DNA of 32,311 bases from assembly GCA_036397795.1 (NCBI GenBank), contig DASWIF010000065.1, forward strand, positions 1 through 32,311. Direction: 5' to 3'. The position numbers and the translations under genes are program-made. The DNA comes from Candidatus Saccharimonadales bacterium. Lineage in GTDB: Bacteria > Patescibacteriota > Saccharimonadia > Saccharimonadales > DASWIF01. The notes under the pieces are model-generated. The model saw only the letters and a list, made by a program, of their open reading frames with translations, ran no database searches and had not been told where the DNA came from. Every line of letters begins with the position of its first letter. The first letter of the stretch is position 1. This document shows positions 1-28,243 of the stretch, piece after piece.

Positions 1-1685
1 TCGATGTGTAAAATTGGCGATCCATCGGCCGGTTTGAGCAGATTTTTACTGGCAACCATGATATTGGCGGCCTCGTCTTGGGCTTCTTGACTAAGCGGCA
101 CGTGCACGGCCATTTGGTCGCCGTCGAAGTCGGCGTTAAAGCCCTTACAGACCAGCGGATGCAACTGAATGGCCTTACCCTCGATCAACTTGGGCTGGAA
201 GGCCTGGATACTCAGCCGGTGCAGGCTCGGCGCCCGGTTTAGCAACACGTACTTACCCTTTGTGACTTCATCTAGTGCGTCCCAGACGACGGTTTCGCCG
301 GCTTCGATCATGCGGGTCGCCGACTTAATGTTGTGGGCGAATTCGTTATCGATTAGATGGCCGATGACAAAGGGTTTGAACAGCTCCAAAGCCATCATCT
401 TGGGCAGGCCGCACTGATTGATATTAAGCTCTGGCCCGGAGACGATGACCGACCGACCGGAATAATCTACTCGTTTACCGAGTAGGTTCTGCCGGAACCG
501 GCCTTGTTTGCCCTTGAGCATATCGCTTAATGATTTCAGCCTTCGGCGGCCGCCGGTCGAGCTGACCGCCCGGCCACTGCGAGCGTTATTGTTATCAATT
601 AGGGCATCGACCGCCTCTTGCAGCATTCTCATCTCATTACGACGGATTACTTCCGGCGCTTTCAGATCAATCAATTTTTTGAGGCGGTTATTCCGGTTAA
701 TCACCCGGCGGTAGAGATCGTTAAGGTCCGATGTGGCAAACCGTCCACCGGTCAATTGAACCATCGGCCGCAGATCCGGCGGGATAACCGGCACGACCGT
801 CATGACCATTGAATTGGGTTTGATATCGGCCTGTTGCATGCTTTCTAACACCTTCAACCGTTTAACGATTTTCTTTTTGCGCTGCCCCCGGGTTTCTTCT
901 GATTCGGCGCCCAGTTCTTCGATCAATTTGTCCAGGTTGATGGCGTCTAACAGGGCTTTGAGAGCTTCACCGCCCATACCGACTTTTATTATCTGGCGAT
1001 ACTCGGCGGGCAAGTCGCGATAGTCCACTTCGCTCATCAGCCGTAACTCTTCCAAACTCTCTAGTTGGTCTTTTTTCTCGTTGTATTCTTGCATGGCTTC
1101 TTCCAGCTCCTTGGTTTGAGCTTCAGCCAGCGCTTTGATATCAGCCTCTTCGGCCTCGGCGGCTTTTTCGTAGCGGGTCTTAATCGCGGTCGAGTCAGCT
1201 TCGTTTTCGGCCGCCAAGTCTGCCAATAACTTGTCTCGTTTGTCAGTATCCGCAGACAACACGACATAACTGGCAAAATAAGCGATCCTCTCCAGGTTCT
1301 TGACCGTCATGCCGAGCAGGAGCCCCATAGCCGACGGCGTACCGCGCATAAACCAAATATGGGCCACCGGCGCGGCCAGGTTAATATGCCCCATACGTTC
1401 CCGACGGACGATCGATTTGGTGACGATTTCGCCTTTCTTATCAACCGCCATCTCCCGGTAGCGCACACCCTTTAGCTTGGCATCATGCGGGTTTAAGTCC
1501 TTGACTGGACCAAAGATTTTTTCACAAAAAAGACCATCCCGTTCCGGTTTCTGGGTACGGTAGTTGATCGTTTCCGGCTTGGTCACCTCGCCGTGCGACC
1601 AGGACAGAATGTCGTCGTCACTCGCGACCGATAACCGCACGGCGTTAAAATCAGATATGTCCCGGCTGTAGCTGTATCTAGTCAT
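1..1685 (-). CDS. rpoC: RNA polymerase beta' subunit (5' part, runs off window)
   Basis: Catalytic clamp subunit of RNA polymerase. About 561 N-terminal residues are present; the 3' end lies beyond base 1. The active-site motif NADFDGD is at residues 517-523 (Mg-binding Asp 519, 521, 523), and the bridge to it, with [18 protein letters not shown]-type sequence, is intact. The ATG at 1685 overlaps the rpoB stop by 8 nt, so the two are translationally coupled. Two oddities are visible. The N-terminal zinc domain (residues 62-89) aligns without gaps to the usual form, but the four zinc cysteines are P66, D68, V81 and K84. Residues about 145-215 form a charged, probably coiled-coil insertion that is absent from E. 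coli beta'. Identity is certain; whether the zinc domain still folds is unknown. Confidence 0.98.
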
Positions 1686-4600
1686 CTTTCTTACCCTTGG
1701 CTTTTTTGGCTTTAGCTTTGTCGTCGTCATCATCGCCGCCGCTGCCGTCTTCGGCTAGGGCAAACTCGTCCACCACGCTATCCGCCGTTACGTCTAGCGG
1801 TGTGGCCGTGTCCTCATCCGGTTTGACTTGAGGGCTGTGTTCGGCCACATTTTTAATCGATTCGGCCAACAAAGCCTCAGCATCAATTTGCTTAGCATCG
1901 CTTTCAATCAAATCAACCTTGAGACCCAAACCCTGTAACTCCTTGACCAGCACATTAAACGACTCTGGCACCTTCGGCCCGACGATTGGCTCTTTTTTGA
2001 TAATCGACTCGTAGGCTTTGGATCGGCCAAAGACGTCGTCGGATTTGATCGTTAGCATTTCCTGCAATGACGCGGCCGCGCCATAGGCTTCCAGACCCCA
2101 AACTTCCATTTCGCCAAAGCGTTGACCGCCGTTTTGGGCCTTTCCGCCCAAGGGCTGTTGGGTGACCATAGTGTAGGGACCGATCGACCGGGCATGGATC
2201 TTGTCAACCACCATGTGCTCCAGCTTCAGCATGTACATTGACCCCACTACCGAGTGCTGATTGAAGGCATCACCGCTGCGGCCGTCATATAGTTGGAATT
2301 TACCGTCTTCAGGCAAACCGGCCTGCTTCAGCAATTGTTTAATCTTATCGATGCTCACGCCGCTAAATGCCGGCGAGGCGACCTTCAGGCCCAACGTCCG
2401 CATAGCCATACCGAGGTGCGTCTCAAACACCTGGCCGATATTCATTCTTGATACCACACCGAGCGGGTTGAGCACGATATCAACCGGCGTGCCGTCGGCC
2501 ATAAATGGCATGTCTTCGGCTGGTAAGATCCGAGCAATTACGCCCTTGTTGCCGTGCCGGCCGGCTAGCTTATCGCCGACCTGGATTTTTCGCATTTGGG
2601 CCACAAACACTTGGATTTGCATGATCACACCGGCCTTAAGATCGTGGCCTTCGTCGCGGCTGAAAACTTTGACGCCGACGACCTTACCGTGCTTGCCGTT
2701 GCTCATTCGTTGGGAAGTATCTCTTACGTCTTTGGCTTTTTCGCCGAAGATGGCACGCAGCAAGCGTTCTTCGCTGGATAATTCCTGCTCGCCTTTTGGC
2801 GTAATCTTACCGACTAAGATATCACCTTGCCTGACTTCCGCCCCGACACGCACGATACCGTCTTCGTCGAGATGACGTAAACTTTCCTCCGACACGTTGG
2901 GGATATCGCGGGTGACGAGTTCGGGACCCAGCTTGGTCTCGCGAACTTCAGTCATATAATCAACGATATGGATGGAAGTGAAGGTGTCGTCCTTAACCAA
3001 CCGCTCGCTGATAACAATCGAGTCTTCAAAGTTAAATCCACCCCAGGGCATGAAAGCGACCAGGACATCCTTACCAATCGCCAGTTCGCCGCCTTCGATT
3101 GACATGCCTTCCGCCAGGATATCGCCTTCTTTGACCTTATCACCAGAATTGACTACCACCCGGTAATTGATATTCGTTCCTTCGTTACTCCGGACAAAAT
3201 GCGACGGCCGATAAGTCTTTCTGACCTTGGCGTACTTCACTACTACTTCGTCGGCCGTAGCTTTCTCAACCTTGCCGGCAGCTTCAGCTAAAATCAGTTG
3301 GCCAGTATTACGGGCGACCACGGCCTCCAGGCCGGTCCCAACAATTGGCGCCTCAGCCTGCAGCAGCGGTACTGCCTGTTTTTGCTGGTTGGCTCCGGTC
3401 AGGGAGCGAACGACATTATCTTTTTCGATAAACGGAATCAAACCGGCGTTGGCGCCGATAATCTGCGCTCGGGAAGCGTCCATGTGGGTCACATCGTCGG
3501 CGTCGGCTTCGCCGGTCACCAATCGGTTCCTGACGCTGACCCGTGATTCTATAAAATAGCCGTCATCGCTGGTTTCTGTACCCGCCCCGGTGATTACGGC
3601 GCTCTCTTCCTCGTAGGCGTCCATATAGACCACGTCATTGGTAACCCGCGACTTAACCGGAAAAGTGACACGCCCAGACTTGGCCAACTTGAGAGCGGCA
3701 GCCTTAGTTATTTGTTGGCCTTTTTTGACCACCACCTTGCCTTTGGCGTCCTTGAGGCCTTCTCGTGCAATGTGTCCGGCGGCGTCTTTGGCCGTCACGG
3801 CGTTAACTACCTTGCGATACGGCGTTTCCACGAAGCCGTACTCGTTTATCCGGGCGTGGGTGGCTAGGTTAAGTACCAATCCGATATTGCTGCCTTCCGG
3901 CGTTTCGACTGTACACATCCGGCCATAATGCGTGGCGTGAGCGTCGCGGACTTCAAACCCGGCTCGTTCTCGGCTCAAGCCACCGGGGCCCATTGAGCTT
4001 AAACGCCGCTTATGGGCCAATTCGCTGAGTGGATTGATCTGATCCATGAACTGGCTGAGTTGGGACGAAGCAAAAAATTCTCGTACGGCGGCCACAACCG
4101 GCCGGGCGTTGATCAGTTGGCTTGGAGTTACGGTTTCGATTTCCGACATTGACATCCGGTCTTTGGCGTTTCTCTCCATGCGTAACAGACCGATCCTAAA
4201 TTGCCGCTGGACCAGCTCGCCGACTAATTTCACGCGGCGATTGGCCAGGCTGTCGATGTCGTCTGGTAAATCCTGGGTGTTATTAAGCCGGATAATCTCA
4301 GCAATAATGGCGGTCAAATCTTCCAGCCGCATGGTGCGGTTCTTGATAGTATTGGGAACGTTCAAATCCAGCCGGTTGTTGATCTTGTAACGGCCGACAC
4401 GAGAAAAATCGAAACGCTTGAAACTAAAGAACATGTTTTCCAACAGACTTTTGGCATTTTCTACTGTCGCCAAATCACCAGGCCGCAGCCGGCGGTAAAC
4501 CTCGATTAAGGCGTCACCGGTTGAGCGGGACGGGTCCTTATCAAGCGTGGCGTCAATGAAGCTGGTCGCACCGCTGTCGACATGAGCAAACAAGTCCTTT

Positions 4601-5205
4601 ATTTGACTATTGTTACTATAGCCCAACGCTCTGAGCAGCGTCGTCACAGGAATCTTGCGGCGGCGGTCAATCTTGACATACATGGCGCCGTTATTGGCGG
4701 TTTCAAATTCTAACCAGGCACCACGGCCCGGAATAACTTTGGCACCATATAGACTGGTCGTACCGGACGTTTGAGCGGTAAAGAATACGCCCGCCGAACG
4801 GATGAGTTGGGATACGACCACCCGCTCTGAGCCGTTGATAACGAACGTCCCGCGGTCGGTCATCCAGGGATAGTCACCCAAATAAATTTCTTGTTCCTTG
4901 ACCTCACCAGTCACCTTGTTGATCAATTCAATCGTCGCCATCAGCGGCGCTTCATAGGTTATATTGTTGACTCTGGCCTCGATTTCCGAGATTTTTGGCG
5001 CCTCAAATCGGTGCGACTTAAAGTTCATCGACAACTTGATACCGGTATAATCTTCGATCGGATTGATTTCTTCGAAGATCTCGCTCAGGCCAAACTTGAC
5101 AAACCACTGCCAGGATGACAGTTGGTGTTCGATAAGGTTGTCTAATTTGACGGCTTCGTCGACTTTAGAATAATAAACACGCTCAGTCGTGGCGGATTTG
5201 GCCAT
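1678..5205 (-). CDS. rpoB: RNA polymerase beta subunit
   Basis: Beta subunit of RNA polymerase, 1175 aa, shorter than E. coli RpoB because the lineage-specific insertions are missing. The rifampicin pocket is conserved ([20 protein letters not shown], residues about 382-402): the positions equivalent to E. coli Q513, D516, H526, R529 and S531 are all wild type, while N518 is Ile. The [14 protein letters not shown] segment and the C-terminal clamp ([20 protein letters not shown]) are present. The C-terminus adds an acidic then lysine-rich tail ([20 protein letters not shown]) whose core recurs in L19 of this window. The start is fixed by an AGGGGG Shine-Dalgarno before the ATG. rpoC overlaps the stop. 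Confidence 0.99.
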
Positions 5206-23955: not shown

Positions 23956-23980
23956 TTGTCGGGGTTGGACGACTTTTTTT
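23954..23980 (+). terminator. Plus-strand terminator facing into nusA
   Basis: AGTTGTC-GGGGTTG-GACGACT (7-bp stem, one G-T) followed by seven T on the plus strand. No gene on the plus strand ends here; it would stop transcription running antisense into nusA. The hairpin begins in the last bases of CIRCE and the T-run reaches the nusA stop codon. Confidence 0.5.
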
Positions 23981-25241
23981 ACTGGGCTTTGGGGCCAGTC
24001 GCCTTGGTGGATTTGACCCGTTTGGCAGGTGAGGCCTTTGATTCCTGGGTCTTTGTGACCGCTACTTTTGCCCTAGACTGCTCAGTTGGGGGTTCGGTCA
24101 AGTTTGCTGCAACGGCTTCATCACCGGCTTGGCTGGCGATGGCCGCTAACAGTGAGTCTTCAATATTCTTCTTCGGCCGTTTGGCTTTTACAGCTTTTTC
24201 GCTACCAACAGCCTCAATGTCGATTTCATAGCCGACAAGCTTCGACGCCAACCGCACATTTTGGCCGCCCCGGCCAATCGCCACTGAGAGTTGGTCCTCG
24301 GCTACCTTGACCACCGCCTTTTTGGTCTTTTTGTCCAGAACAATCTCTGCCACTTCGGTCGGCGATAGGGCATTTTTAAGGTATTTAATGGTGTCCTCAT
24401 CATAAGTAATGATGTCGATTTTTTCTTGGTCGCCAATCTCGCTCATGACAGCTTGGACCCGGGTTCCGTGGCCGCCGACAAAGGTACCGACCGGATCAAC
24501 TCCCGGCACGGTAGAAGCCACGGCAATCTTCGTTCTGACACCGGCTTCACGGGCGATCGCCTTGATTTCAACCGCTCCGTTTTCCATTTCGGGGACCTCA
24601 TTTTTAAACAGATGCTCGATAAAGTGTTCGTTTGCTCGGCTTAAAATAAGTTGCGGTCCGCGATTTTCTCGCTCGACGTCCTTTAAGAAGACCTTCACCC
24701 GGCCGCCGACAGTATAATATTCGCCCGGGATTTGCTCGCTCTTAGGCATGATGCCGCTGGCGCGACCCAGATCGACACGGACGATACGTTGCTCTACCCG
24801 GCTAATTACACCCGTTACGACCGAGCCGATTTTATCGGAATATTCTTCGAGCACAACCTCTCGTTCGGCCTCACGCAGTTTTTGCAAAATAACTTGCTTG
24901 GCCGTTTGGGCGGCCACCCGTCCGAATGACGTTGGCTTTTGCTTAAATTCAATCGTCTCGCCCAACTTTGCGCTTTTACGCTTTTTCTGGGCATCGGCCA
25001 CTGATATTTCAATGTCCGGATCCTCAACTTTGTCGACAATGGTCTTGTGAGCAGTAATGGTTACGTCGCCGGTGTTGGTATTTATCATGGCCGTAACTTC
25101 TTGTTCTTTATCGCCAAAGTCCTTGCGCCAAGCGGCGGCTAATGCCTGGCCGATAATGTCGTGAACGACTTCTTCCGGCAAGTTCTTTTCCTCGGCGATT
25201 TGCTTGACCGCCATCACTAGTTGTTTAGTTTGAATCTCCAT
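23979..25241 (-). CDS. nusA: Transcription termination/antitermination factor NusA
   Basis: RNA polymerase elongation factor that promotes hairpin pausing and intrinsic termination; 420 aa. N-terminal RNAP-binding domain (1-125), S1 domain (about 137-200), KH1 with GGHGTR (about 256-261) and KH2 with GRGGQNVRLA (323-332). A lysine-rich, disordered-looking tail follows from about 350; the E. coli acidic repeats are absent, as in Gram-positive NusA. It has AAGGAG 6 nt before the ATG, one of the few strong Shine-Dalgarno sites here. The usual rimP and infB neighbours are missing. Confidence 0.97.
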   Translation of the reverse strand: MEIQTKQLVMAVKQIAEEKNLPEEVVHDIIGQALAAAWRKDFGDKEQEVTAMINTNTGDVTITAHKTIVDKVEDPDIEISVADAQKKRKSAKLGETIEFKQKPTSFGRVAAQTAKQVILQKLREAEREVVLEEYSDKIGSVVTGVISRVEQRIVRVDLGRASGIMPKSEQIPGEYYTVGGRVKVFLKDVERENRGPQLILSRANEHFIEHLFKNEVPEMENGAVEIKAIAREAGVRTKIAVASTVPGVDPVGTFVGGHGTRVQAVMSEIGDQEKIDIITYDEDTIKYLKNALSPTEVAEIVLDKKTKKAVVKVAEDQLSVAIGRGGQNVRLASKLVGYEIDIEAVGSEKAVKAKRPKKNIEDSLLAAIASQAGDEAVAANLTEPPTEQSRAKVAVTKTQESKASPAKRVKSTKATGPKAQ

Positions 25242-25247
25242 AATTGA

Positions 25248-25253
25248 CTCCTT
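25248..25253 (-). promoter_or_regulatory. nusA ribosome-binding site
   Basis: AAGGAG on the minus strand, 6 nt before the ATG; notable because most genes in the window lack one. Confidence 0.8.
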
Positions 25254-25273
25254 AAAAAATCGCTTTTTAAACT

Positions 25274-25296
25274 AAAAAACCCGACCTGCCGGCCGG
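25274..25296 (-). terminator. Intrinsic terminator inside the nusA 5' leader
   Basis: Minus strand: CCGGCC-GGCA-GGTCGG (6-bp stem with one G-U), one G, then six T. It lies between the nusA promoter and its Shine-Dalgarno, and no other minus-strand gene ends nearby, so it acts, if at all, on the nusA transcript itself: a possible attenuator. Confidence 0.65.
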
Positions 25297-25311
25297 ATCT
25301 GTACAAGGTTG

Positions 25312-25341
25312 ATTGTAACATTTAGACGCCGCCCTAGTCAA
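25312..25341 (-). promoter_or_regulatory. nusA promoter
   Basis: Minus strand: TTGACT (25336-25341), 18 bp, TACAAT (25312-25317). Predicted leader about 65 nt. Divergent from the tldD promoter, whose -10 is 50 bp away. Confidence 0.7.
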
Positions 25342-25379: not shown

Positions 25380-26888
25380 ATGTCAAACCACCATTTAACT
25401 GATGATTTTTTGCGGTTACCGTATGAAAAATTGGCTGAACTAGCTTTGACAGAAGCTCGCCGACTTGGTGCCAGCTACGCCGACTTTCGATTTGAGCGGC
25501 TTAGGCGCCAAAGTATTCGTTTACGTGACGCCCACGCTGAAACCAATATTGAAGATGTTGAGATAGGTTACTGTGTGCGGCTGTTGATTGACGGCGCCTG
25601 GGGTTTTGCCGGCAGCTCAGATCTCGACCCAGCCGCGGTTAAAGCCACTATTAAACGGGCCGAACGGGTGGCAAACGCCTCCCGGCCGCTATTAAAGGAA
25701 CGAGTAGAGCTGGCGCCCGAACCAACCTACGTCGACACTTTCATTTCCGACTATGACATCAATCCGTTCAGTATTAGTCTAAAAGACAAGATTGAGCACC
25801 TCTCGACCTTGGCCGACATCGCCCAGCAGGCCGATAATATTGATCACACGTCATTCGACGTCGATCAGGTGCTGGAAAACAAATTTTATGCCAATCTTGA
25901 GGGCAGCGCCATTACCCAGCAACGCATCCGGGTCCAAGGCAATTTGCAAGCTACCAGCATTGACCGCCAAACCGGCCGATTTGAATCGATCAGAACTAAT
26001 GCCGCCCCGGCCGGCCGCGGTTGGGAACGGTTTGTCTCCCAATATGATTACGCCGGTGAAATCAGCCAATTACCCAGTCTATTGGCGGCTAAGCACAAAG
26101 CCCAAAGCATTACGCCAGGCCGCTATGATCTGGTGATCGACCCGACCAATTTATTTTTGACTATCCATGAATCGGTCGGGCACGCCACCGAGCTGGACCG
26201 CGCGCTCGGTTATGAAGCCAACTACGCCGGCACCTCGTTTGCCACAATCGATAATTTGGACAAATTACAGTATGGCTCGGCCGCCATGACCGTTACTGGC
26301 GACCGCACGACACCAAATGGCCTGGCTACTATCGGTTATGACGACGAAGGTGTTAAGGCCCAAAAATGGGACATCATAAAAATTGGCCGTCTAGTCGGTT
26401 ATCAGCTTAACCGCCAAATGGCGCCTAAGCTGGGGCTGAAACAATCCAATGGTTGCGCTTTTTCTGACTCTTTCGTCCACGCTCCTCTGCAACGGATGCC
26501 CAATGTCAGCCTGGCGGCAAACACTAAGGATGTTACCACCGACGATTTGATCGCCGGCGTTGACAACGGCATCTACATCATTGGCGACAATAGTTGGAGT
26601 ATCGACATGCAGCGATACAATTTCCAGTTTACCGGCCAACAATTTTACCGTATCAAGAATGGTCGGTTAGACGGCCAACTAAAAGACGTGGCTTACCAAG
26701 CCAATACGCTGGAGTTCTGGAATTCATTGGTCGAGGTCGGCGGAATGTCGACTTACGTCCTCGGCGGCGCTTTTAACTGTGGCAAAGGCCAACCGGGTCA
26801 AGTGGCGCCAGTCAGCCATGGCTCGCCTGCAGCCTTATTTAAGCAGATCAATGTGCTCAATACGGTCGCGGAGGCCAACGCCGCATGA
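25380..26888 (+). CDS. tldD: Metalloprotease TldD
   Basis: Catalytic subunit of the TldD/TldE heterodimeric zinc protease, which trims unfolded peptides and, in some bacteria, RiPP leader peptides. 502 aa from the chosen ATG. The HExxxH zinc motif is present as HESVGH (H263, E264, H268), followed by the family segment ATELDRALGYEANYAG. The TGA overlaps the tldE ATG by 4 nt, so the two subunits are coupled. No RiPP precursor or modifying enzyme is visible near it, suggesting a general proteolytic role. Confidence 0.95.
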   Translation: MSNHHLTDDFLRLPYEKLAELALTEARRLGASYADFRFERLRRQSIRLRDAHAETNIEDVEIGYCVRLLIDGAWGFAGSSDLDPAAVKATIKRAERVANASRPLLKERVELAPEPTYVDTFISDYDINPFSISLKDKIEHLSTLADIAQQADNIDHTSFDVDQVLENKFYANLEGSAITQQRIRVQGNLQATSIDRQTGRFESIRTNAAPAGRGWERFVSQYDYAGEISQLPSLLAAKHKAQSITPGRYDLVIDPTNLFLTIHESVGHATELDRALGYEANYAGTSFATIDNLDKLQYGSAAMTVTGDRTTPNGLATIGYDDEGVKAQKWDIIKIGRLVGYQLNRQMAPKLGLKQSNGCAFSDSFVHAPLQRMPNVSLAANTKDVTTDDLIAGVDNGIYIIGDNSWSIDMQRYNFQFTGQQFYRIKNGRLDGQLKDVAYQANTLEFWNSLVEVGGMSTYVLGGAFNCGKGQPGQVAPVSHGSPAALFKQINVLNTVAEANAA

Positions 26889-28243
26889 CTCCCCAAAAGA
26901 TAATCTCCGCTGTGCTGGATAAGTCCAAGGCCGATGAGTGTATGGTAATCGTGGCAGATTACAACAAGACCAACCTGCGTTGGGCCCACACCGGTCTGAC
27001 TACTAATGGCTCCTCCCAACACACCTACGCCGCCGTCATCTCAATTATCAACCAGCGATTCGGATCTTACGTTGTCAGTCTGGACAAGTTGACTAATCCG
27101 GCCGAGTTAGCGGCTAAATCCGAACTGGCCGCTCGTCAGAGTCCAATCGCCAAAGACTATCAGCCGCTGCTGGCAAAAACTCCCGACTCAAGGCCGACAG
27201 ACCGTTTAAGCGCAGAGCCCAGCCTGGCTGGCTTCACCTCAAAACTCGGCCGGACATTTGAGCGAGCTGGCCGTGACAAGCTTGAGTTATTCGGCTACTG
27301 CGAGTTCCAAAATACCCGTTACAATTTGGGCCTTTCTACCGGGTTGAGGCGCCATCATGAGCACCAACATGGTCAACTCGAACTCAATGCCAAGTCGGCC
27401 GACTTTAGGCGTTCGGTCTGGGCTGGCAGCTCGTTTAAGGATATAAATCGAGCTGACCCGGCCACTCTTTATAAGACCCTGAAACTAAAAGCCGGTTGGT
27501 CGCGCCAACAGATAAAACTTAAACCCGGACGTTATGAAACCATACTAGAGTCTTCGGCCGTGGCTGATTTGCTGCTGTTTGCTTATTGGATGAGCTCGGC
27601 TCGCTTAGCAGAAGAAGGTCATTCGGCTTATAGCGCCAAAGCCGGCGGCTCTCTGATCGGCCAAAAACTCTACAGTTCGGATATTTCTATCTATTCCGAT
27701 CCGTTTAAACCCGGTCTGGAGACAACCCCCTTTAACGTCGTCTTCTCTTCCGGTTTGGAGGAATCGGTGTTTGACAATGGGCTGGAACTAAAGCGCACCG
27801 ACTGGGTCAAAAACGGCGTCCAACGACACCTGTTGGCCCCGCGTTACCTGGTCAAAAAATACGGCTATCAACGGGCTACGCCATTTATCCCTAACCTAAT
27901 TTTTGAACACGCGGGGGCTAATACCGATGACATGATTAAAGCAACCAAGTACGGTTTGTTAGTCACATGCTTGTGGTACATCAGAGAAGTCGATCCACAA
28001 TCGCTGTTGTTGACCGGTTTGACGCGCGACGGAACTTTTTTGATCGAAAATGGCCAAGTCAAGGGCGCGGTCAATAACTTTAGATTCAACATGAGTCCGA
28101 TTACCATGCTCAAACAAGTTGCCGAAATCGGTCATTCGCAACCGACCTTAGCTCGGGAATTCGGTGACTATTTCCCGCTGACTATCATGCCGGCGCTGCG
28201 GGTGGCCGACTTTAATATGAGCTCAGTCAGTCAAGCTCTGTAA
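26885..28243 (+). CDS. tldE: TldE/PmbA family protein, partner subunit
   Basis: Non-catalytic partner of TldD, 452 aa. It has the PmbA/TldD fold signature sequence (RYETILESSAVADLLLFAYW; GGSLIGQKLYSSDISIYSDP) and no HExxxH, as expected of TldE. The ATG overlaps the tldD stop. The stop codon is only 2 bp from the stop of yraN on the opposite strand, with no terminator between. Confidence 0.9.
   Translation: MTPQKIISAVLDKSKADECMVIVADYNKTNLRWAHTGLTTNGSSQHTYAAVISIINQRFGSYVVSLDKLTNPAELAAKSELAARQSPIAKDYQPLLAKTPDSRPTDRLSAEPSLAGFTSKLGRTFERAGRDKLELFGYCEFQNTRYNLGLSTGLRRHHEHQHGQLELNAKSADFRRSVWAGSSFKDINRADPATLYKTLKLKAGWSRQQIKLKPGRYETILESSAVADLLLFAYWMSSARLAEEGHSAYSAKAGGSLIGQKLYSSDISIYSDPFKPGLETTPFNVVFSSGLEESVFDNGLELKRTDWVKNGVQRHLLAPRYLVKKYGYQRATPFIPNLIFEHAGANTDDMIKATKYGLLVTCLWYIREVDPQSLLLTGLTRDGTFLIENGQVKGAVNNFRFNMSPITMLKQVAEIGHSQPTLAREFGDYFPLTIMPALRVADFNMSSVSQAL

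Follow-up and report, generated by a model that had tools for sequence, protein, structure and literature searches.

The nusA gene of a Candidatus Saccharimonadales bacterium raises the question of whether it limits its own expression through a transcription terminator in its leader. The gene lies at 23979..25241 on the minus strand, with its ATG at 25241, of a 32,311-nt stretch of DNA (contig DASWIF010000065.1; hereafter, the window). The ORF list and Pfam identified its 420-aa product by NusA_N, S1, and KH domains, and the gene is single copy in the 779-kb genome (95% complete). A TldD/PmbA-type gene was found on the plus strand at 25380..26888 (ORF list and Pfam; the ORF may start at GTG 25362), and together with a second such gene it forms a pair (25380-26888 and 26885-28243) that diverges from nusA. 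Because this upstream neighbor is divergent, a terminator in the leader serves nusA and no other gene, as the original prediction had argued. That the hairpin is instead the 3' terminator of the upstream gene was considered and rejected as having next to no chance of being right: such terminators are common in compact genomes and the gene nearest upstream of nusA is co-directional in 11 of 56 relatives, but it is divergent here and in 44 of the 56, and the hairpin sits downstream of the nusA promoter.

A promoter scan and inspection of the sequence placed the –35 hexamer TTGACT at 25336..25341 and an extended –10 element at 25312..25320 (TG, one base, then TACAAT at 25317-25312), both on the minus strand and with an 18-nt spacer between TTGACT and TACAAT. 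The predicted promoter TTGACT-18-TACAAT was thus found, with a TG one base before its –10. Eleven nucleotides after TACAAT comes the 5' arm of the hairpin, AGATCCGGCC (25291..25300), with the core CCGGCC (25296-25291), followed by the loop GGCA (25287..25290) and the 3' arm, GGTCGGGTTT (25277..25286), with the core GGTCGG (25286-25281). Both cores are kept in relatives, in which the loop varies in length and sequence. The U-tract (25271..25279) consists of TTTTTT (25279-25274) and then AGT, with one G between GGTCGG and the T run, and a Shine-Dalgarno-like AAGGAG lies at 25248..25253. The hairpin and the six T expected between the promoter and AAGGAG were therefore all in place, and the 6-bp core with its G-U was confirmed, the G-U being the fourth pair (T at 25284 with G at 25293); A-U and G-U pairs at the base can extend the stem to 10 bp. 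A second hairpin, built of A and T only (TTTAAAAA...TTTTTTAA), was predicted at 25271-25251 (minus strand) between the terminator and the start codon.

The 40-nt leader folded at –14.6 kcal/mol (z = –3.4), and none of 200 shuffles was equally good. Promoter and terminator were each the top-scoring element of their kind in the 3 kb scanned, and relatives likewise keep a –35/–10 pair with this spacing to the hairpin. By its sequence, a G + C-rich hairpin with a directly adjoining U-tract, the element is a predicted intrinsic (Rho-independent) terminator, and its place between nusA's own promoter, recognized by consensus, and the start codon is the layout of a putative leader attenuator. Transcription probably starts near 25304, as judged from the position of the –10; the stem would then begin at about +5 (approximately 4 nt after the start), and the terminated RNA would be about 30–34 nt long. 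We consider it very probable that the element is a real leader terminator. No known RNA family accounted for it: an Rfam search of the whole window at gathering score returned tRNA only, and a search of the nusA leader gave no match up to E = 5.

To follow the leader through the order, we identified NusA homologues in 60 further Saccharimonadales genomes and read their leaders. Nearly all shared a hairpin of the form U/G-C/U-CGRCC, loop, GGUCG-G/A-A/C, U5-6, with loops of 3 to 10 nt and a gap of 0–2 nt between the 3' arm and the U5-6 tract in essentially every motif-bearing leader; the stem is missing from a few members of families f20 and f34. After U5-6 came mostly CAU or AAU, and also CGU or AGU, so that the tract is interrupted distally. 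In an alignment of 53 leaders, 98.4% of stem cells were paired, compared with at most 53% when the partner was slid, and two outer pairs covaried, with U-A/G-C and C-G/U-A changes on both sides. The hairpin profile was built from leaders chosen with a sequence pattern, so only its unforced positions (the outer pairs, the loop, and the triplet after the U-tract) are informative. The conservation check that had been proposed thus came out in favor of the element: terminator, weak wobble pair, and interrupted distal U-tract are kept across the order.

The fourth pair had been left free in the pattern while its neighbors were fixed, so that it alone could vary in a count of 128 distinct leaders, which gave G-U 113, A-U 6, A-C 5, G-G 2, G-A 1, A-G 1, and G-C 0; the leaders are related by descent and these counts are not independent events. 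No variation was seen in the flanking pairs, G-C at alignment columns 7-22 and C-G at columns 9-20. An interior G-U occurred in 89% of nusA-leader stems as against 32% of gene-end terminators, and the nusA stems were slightly the weaker (–11.6 vs –12.8 kcal/mol, P about 0.02). Five leaders (L210, L214, L220, L060, and L063) have A-C in place of the conserved G-U; both bases are changed and a wobble-like shape is possible.

To examine how far the motif is specific for nusA, its matches elsewhere were counted. The simple pattern matched 47 of 61 genomes, mostly once and ahead of nusA, and the remaining matches were about as frequent as those of a backward control pattern; in the window's own genome, one match elsewhere sits inside a coding frame. 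A covariance model, R1, built from the leaders of 53 relatives matched 133 of 158 genomes of the order, mostly once each. Among 99 held-out genomes with a listed nusA, 83 had an R1 match 13–224 nt upstream of the gene on the same strand; genomes were held out singly and not by lineage, many of the 99 belong to families used in R1, and one of them, G173, gave a leader to the model. The other 16 had no adjacent match, and of the 15 leaders among these that were read by eye, 14 showed a variant hairpin with a T-run, while the hairpin of L216 is degenerate. Twelve R1 matches lay elsewhere; for one of these, the nusA of the genome was outside the matches listed. The four of these that were inspected were at the 3' ends of two tRNA genes, at the 3' end of rplU, and at a nusA start joined to an rpoB-like frame. 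We rejected the motif as a general terminator or repeat of these genomes, as non-nusA matches were about as rare as control-pattern matches.

Two minor observations arose from these searches. The nusA start joined to an rpoB-like frame (L221 / L286, at the contig end of G244:C71) consists of a leader hairpin and the first ~22 nusA codons running in frame into a divergent rpoB-like sequence that matches the window's RpoB at 41%. Normal copies of both nusA and rpoB are present elsewhere in this genome, and the junction, at which the contig stops, is either a genuine fusion or a product of assembly. The leader L044 (G020:C4) has two terminator-like hairpins upstream of nusA, approximately 120 nt apart, the outer of which also matches R1 on the other strand.

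Background rates of terminators were estimated from 20 stretches of 20 kb from relatives with our own simple scanner and gene caller, and are to be taken as ratios rather than absolute frequencies. Terminators of equal quality were found upstream of 6 of 88 divergent gene starts (7%) and of 16% of 64 co-directional starts with a gap, whereas a terminator preceded nusA in 81% of leaders in the class-level set. An equally good terminator stood at 25 of 370 gene ends (7%; L186-L205), which suggests that genes in Saccharimonadales may seldom end in an intrinsic terminator.

The position of the element is tied to the promoter. In 49 of 56 leaders, 12–19 nt separated the end of the best –10 from the CG core, and the distance from –10 to core was 11–18 nt in 53 of 58 held-out leaders compared with 11% in shuffled upstream sequence, whereas the distance from stem to start codon varied widely (13 to over 200 nt). 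Fixed –10 spacing combined with a variable distance to the start codon indicates that the element belongs to transcription from this promoter and not to the ribosome-binding site, and sequestration of that site was rejected on the variable distance. With a start some 7–8 nt after the –10, as is likely from its position, the stem would begin at about +3 to +8, which leaves no room upstream for a sensor or an anti-terminator. Accepting this start site, the leaders of the order have only about 4–9 nt between start and stem and no sensing or anti-terminator region of a riboswitch, T-box, or anti-terminator type upstream of the stem. Such a lack of room for an aptamer or anti-terminator favors a factor acting directly on the terminator.

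Two further explanations bear on the same geometry. A stem a few nucleotides from the inferred start, at a fixed distance from it, is in the usual place of stabilizing hairpins, and the element could be a 5'-end stem-loop that shields nusA mRNA from decay, with the U run incidental. We regard this as improbable, since stabilizers need no U-tract, yet U5-6 follows within 0–2 nt of the 3' arm in essentially every motif leader, and the conserved wobble would weaken a stabilizer. An inverted repeat acting as a DNA operator for a repressor of nusA would likewise fit the conserved half sites and their place directly after the promoter. It was considered and rejected as very improbable: the loop of 3 to 10 nt does not hold the half sites at a fixed spacing, a G-U is kept in place of a perfect palindrome, and the T run is always found after the nusA-proximal arm.

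Our preferred reading is promoter-locked transcription attenuation of nusA with feedback by NusA, to which we assign a probability of about 0.68; termination in vivo and NusA as the signal are the inferred parts of it. With transcription beginning approximately 4 nt ahead of the stem, the 6–10 bp hairpin, followed by U6, would be the first structure that RNA polymerase makes. Part of the transcripts would stop at about +30 to +34, and nusA mRNA would arise only from read-through. With the stem kept imperfect and the U-tract cut short by CAU, AAU, or AGU, one would expect incomplete termination that a factor assists. The most likely helper would be NusA, whose binding site on RNA polymerase is close to the RNA exit channel and which aids suboptimal hairpins; much free NusA would then give more termination and less nusA mRNA. 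In B. subtilis, NusA helps suboptimal hairpins to form, and distally interrupted U-tracts are among its sites of action (PMC8060035). The leaders resemble the NusA-/NusG-dependent terminators described there in their suboptimal hairpin, weak pairs, and distal U-tract interruption. Both sequence marks of a NusA-dependent terminator are conserved: the fourth pair is never G-C, and the U5-6 tract is followed by CAU, AAU, CGU, or AGU (AGU in the window). The B. subtilis class is genome-wide and was defined by depletion experiments, whereas dependence is here read from sequence.

Some points weigh against NusA as the signal. So near the start, polymerase may terminate inefficiently and NusA may still be blocked by sigma; moreover, with the first six U uninterrupted and a hairpin that is only moderately weak, the terminator could need no factor. 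A different sensor, or a fixed brake on expression, would fit equally well with conservation and position taken by themselves. It is accordingly possible, though unlikely, that this is a real leader terminator whose read-through depends on NusG, nucleotide supply, or the speed of polymerase, or on no signal whatever. Everything in the sequence that speaks for a terminator holds for this reading as well, and in B. subtilis NusG, too, promotes intrinsic termination, with weak base pairs and interrupted U-tracts as its sites of action (PMC8060035). Against it, nusA is singled out among the genes sampled, NusA autoregulation through a leader has precedent, and a fixed brake would not need conservation of the stem sequence across the order. 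Returning to feedback by NusA, we tentatively suggest, as a doubtful extension, that a terminator at the very start of the RNA might read the speed at which NusA replaces sigma on a new polymerase. The fourth pair, held as a wobble (G-U, sometimes A-C, never G-C), might serve as the tuning or recognition point of such a minimal aptamer-free gauge of NusA, kept across Patescibacteria.

In most bacteria, nusA is set in rimP-nusA-infB. A search with RimP_N was negative in all 61 relatives and all 97 genomes of the phylum; of 14 control genomes, the same search was positive in 10. Of the 61 relatives, 55 gave a match for infB, which lies on another contig or far away and never adjoins nusA. With rimP missing and infB elsewhere, nusA is the controlled gene. 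Among 79 leaders examined from other Patescibacteria, promoter-proximal hairpins with other stems preceded nusA (AGUGGG...CCCACU, GGAGC...GCUCC, and AAGUAGG...CCUGCUU are examples), the stem ending mostly 25–55 nt after the –10. A terminator lay upstream of nusA in 61% of these other Patescibacteria vs 7% of divergent control starts. R1 hardly recognizes their leaders, which indicates that the arrangement is shared but the sequence is not.

Attenuation control of this kind is already known from the B. subtilis nusA leader and from the rimP-leader. In B. subtilis, NusA controls its own expression by stimulating termination in the leader of its gene (Mondal 2016, as reported in PMC12288461). According to that report, the likeness extends to an intrinsic terminator in the leader of the nusA transcript (the ylxS/rimP operon) at which NusA regulates. 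There, rimP is first in the operon and the leader is about 180 nt long (PMC2965389), whereas the present locus lacks rimP and begins with nusA, the stem lies almost at the inferred start, and the response to NusA is a candidate only. Repression by NusA of its own operon was also described for E. coli rimP-nusA-infB (Plumbridge 1985 and Nakamura 1985, as cited in PMC2965389), which by the same citing account is, unlike the present locus, a multigene operon with rimP and infB.

The rimP-leader is a conserved terminator before rimP-nusA-infB, for which NusA, or possibly RimP, was proposed as the regulator (Naville and Gautheret 2010, PMC2965389). The element studied here resembles it in being a short terminator with an unusually conserved stem, the aptamer or anti-terminator being missing in most species (PMC2965389), and rimP-leader terminators lie 4–130 nt from the gene (PMC2965389). 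It falls outside that family by its stem signature (GGGc...gCCC in rimP-leader, CCGRCC...GGUCGG here) and by its gene context, in which nusA stands without rimP and with infB not adjacent. The Rfam rimP-leader model had no matches in 20 leader loci of other Patescibacteria. Genomes without rimP and with infB elsewhere bear on a question that the rimP-leader had left open: here the conserved terminator goes with nusA, and not with rimP or infB. What is new is the clade, the stem, the conserved weak pair, the promoter-locked geometry, and the rimP-free setting; in the literature, we found no description of NusA self-limitation by a leader terminator for this bacterial branch. The locus provides a conserved, nusA-specific candidate attenuator in a phylum whose members have tiny genomes, are mostly uncultured, and show little known gene regulation. 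With ~30 nt and a single conserved weak pair, the leader would also be a very simple system in which to study intrinsic termination assisted by a factor.

Two side observations were made on the sequences collected. An Rfam FtrB match at L105:989-1091 (plus strand) scored far below the gathering score (43.6 vs 66 bits). In the window, rpoB (1678-5205) and nusA (23979-25241) lie approximately 20 kb apart on the same minus strand, and the two genes are likewise placed in G029, G204, and G216.
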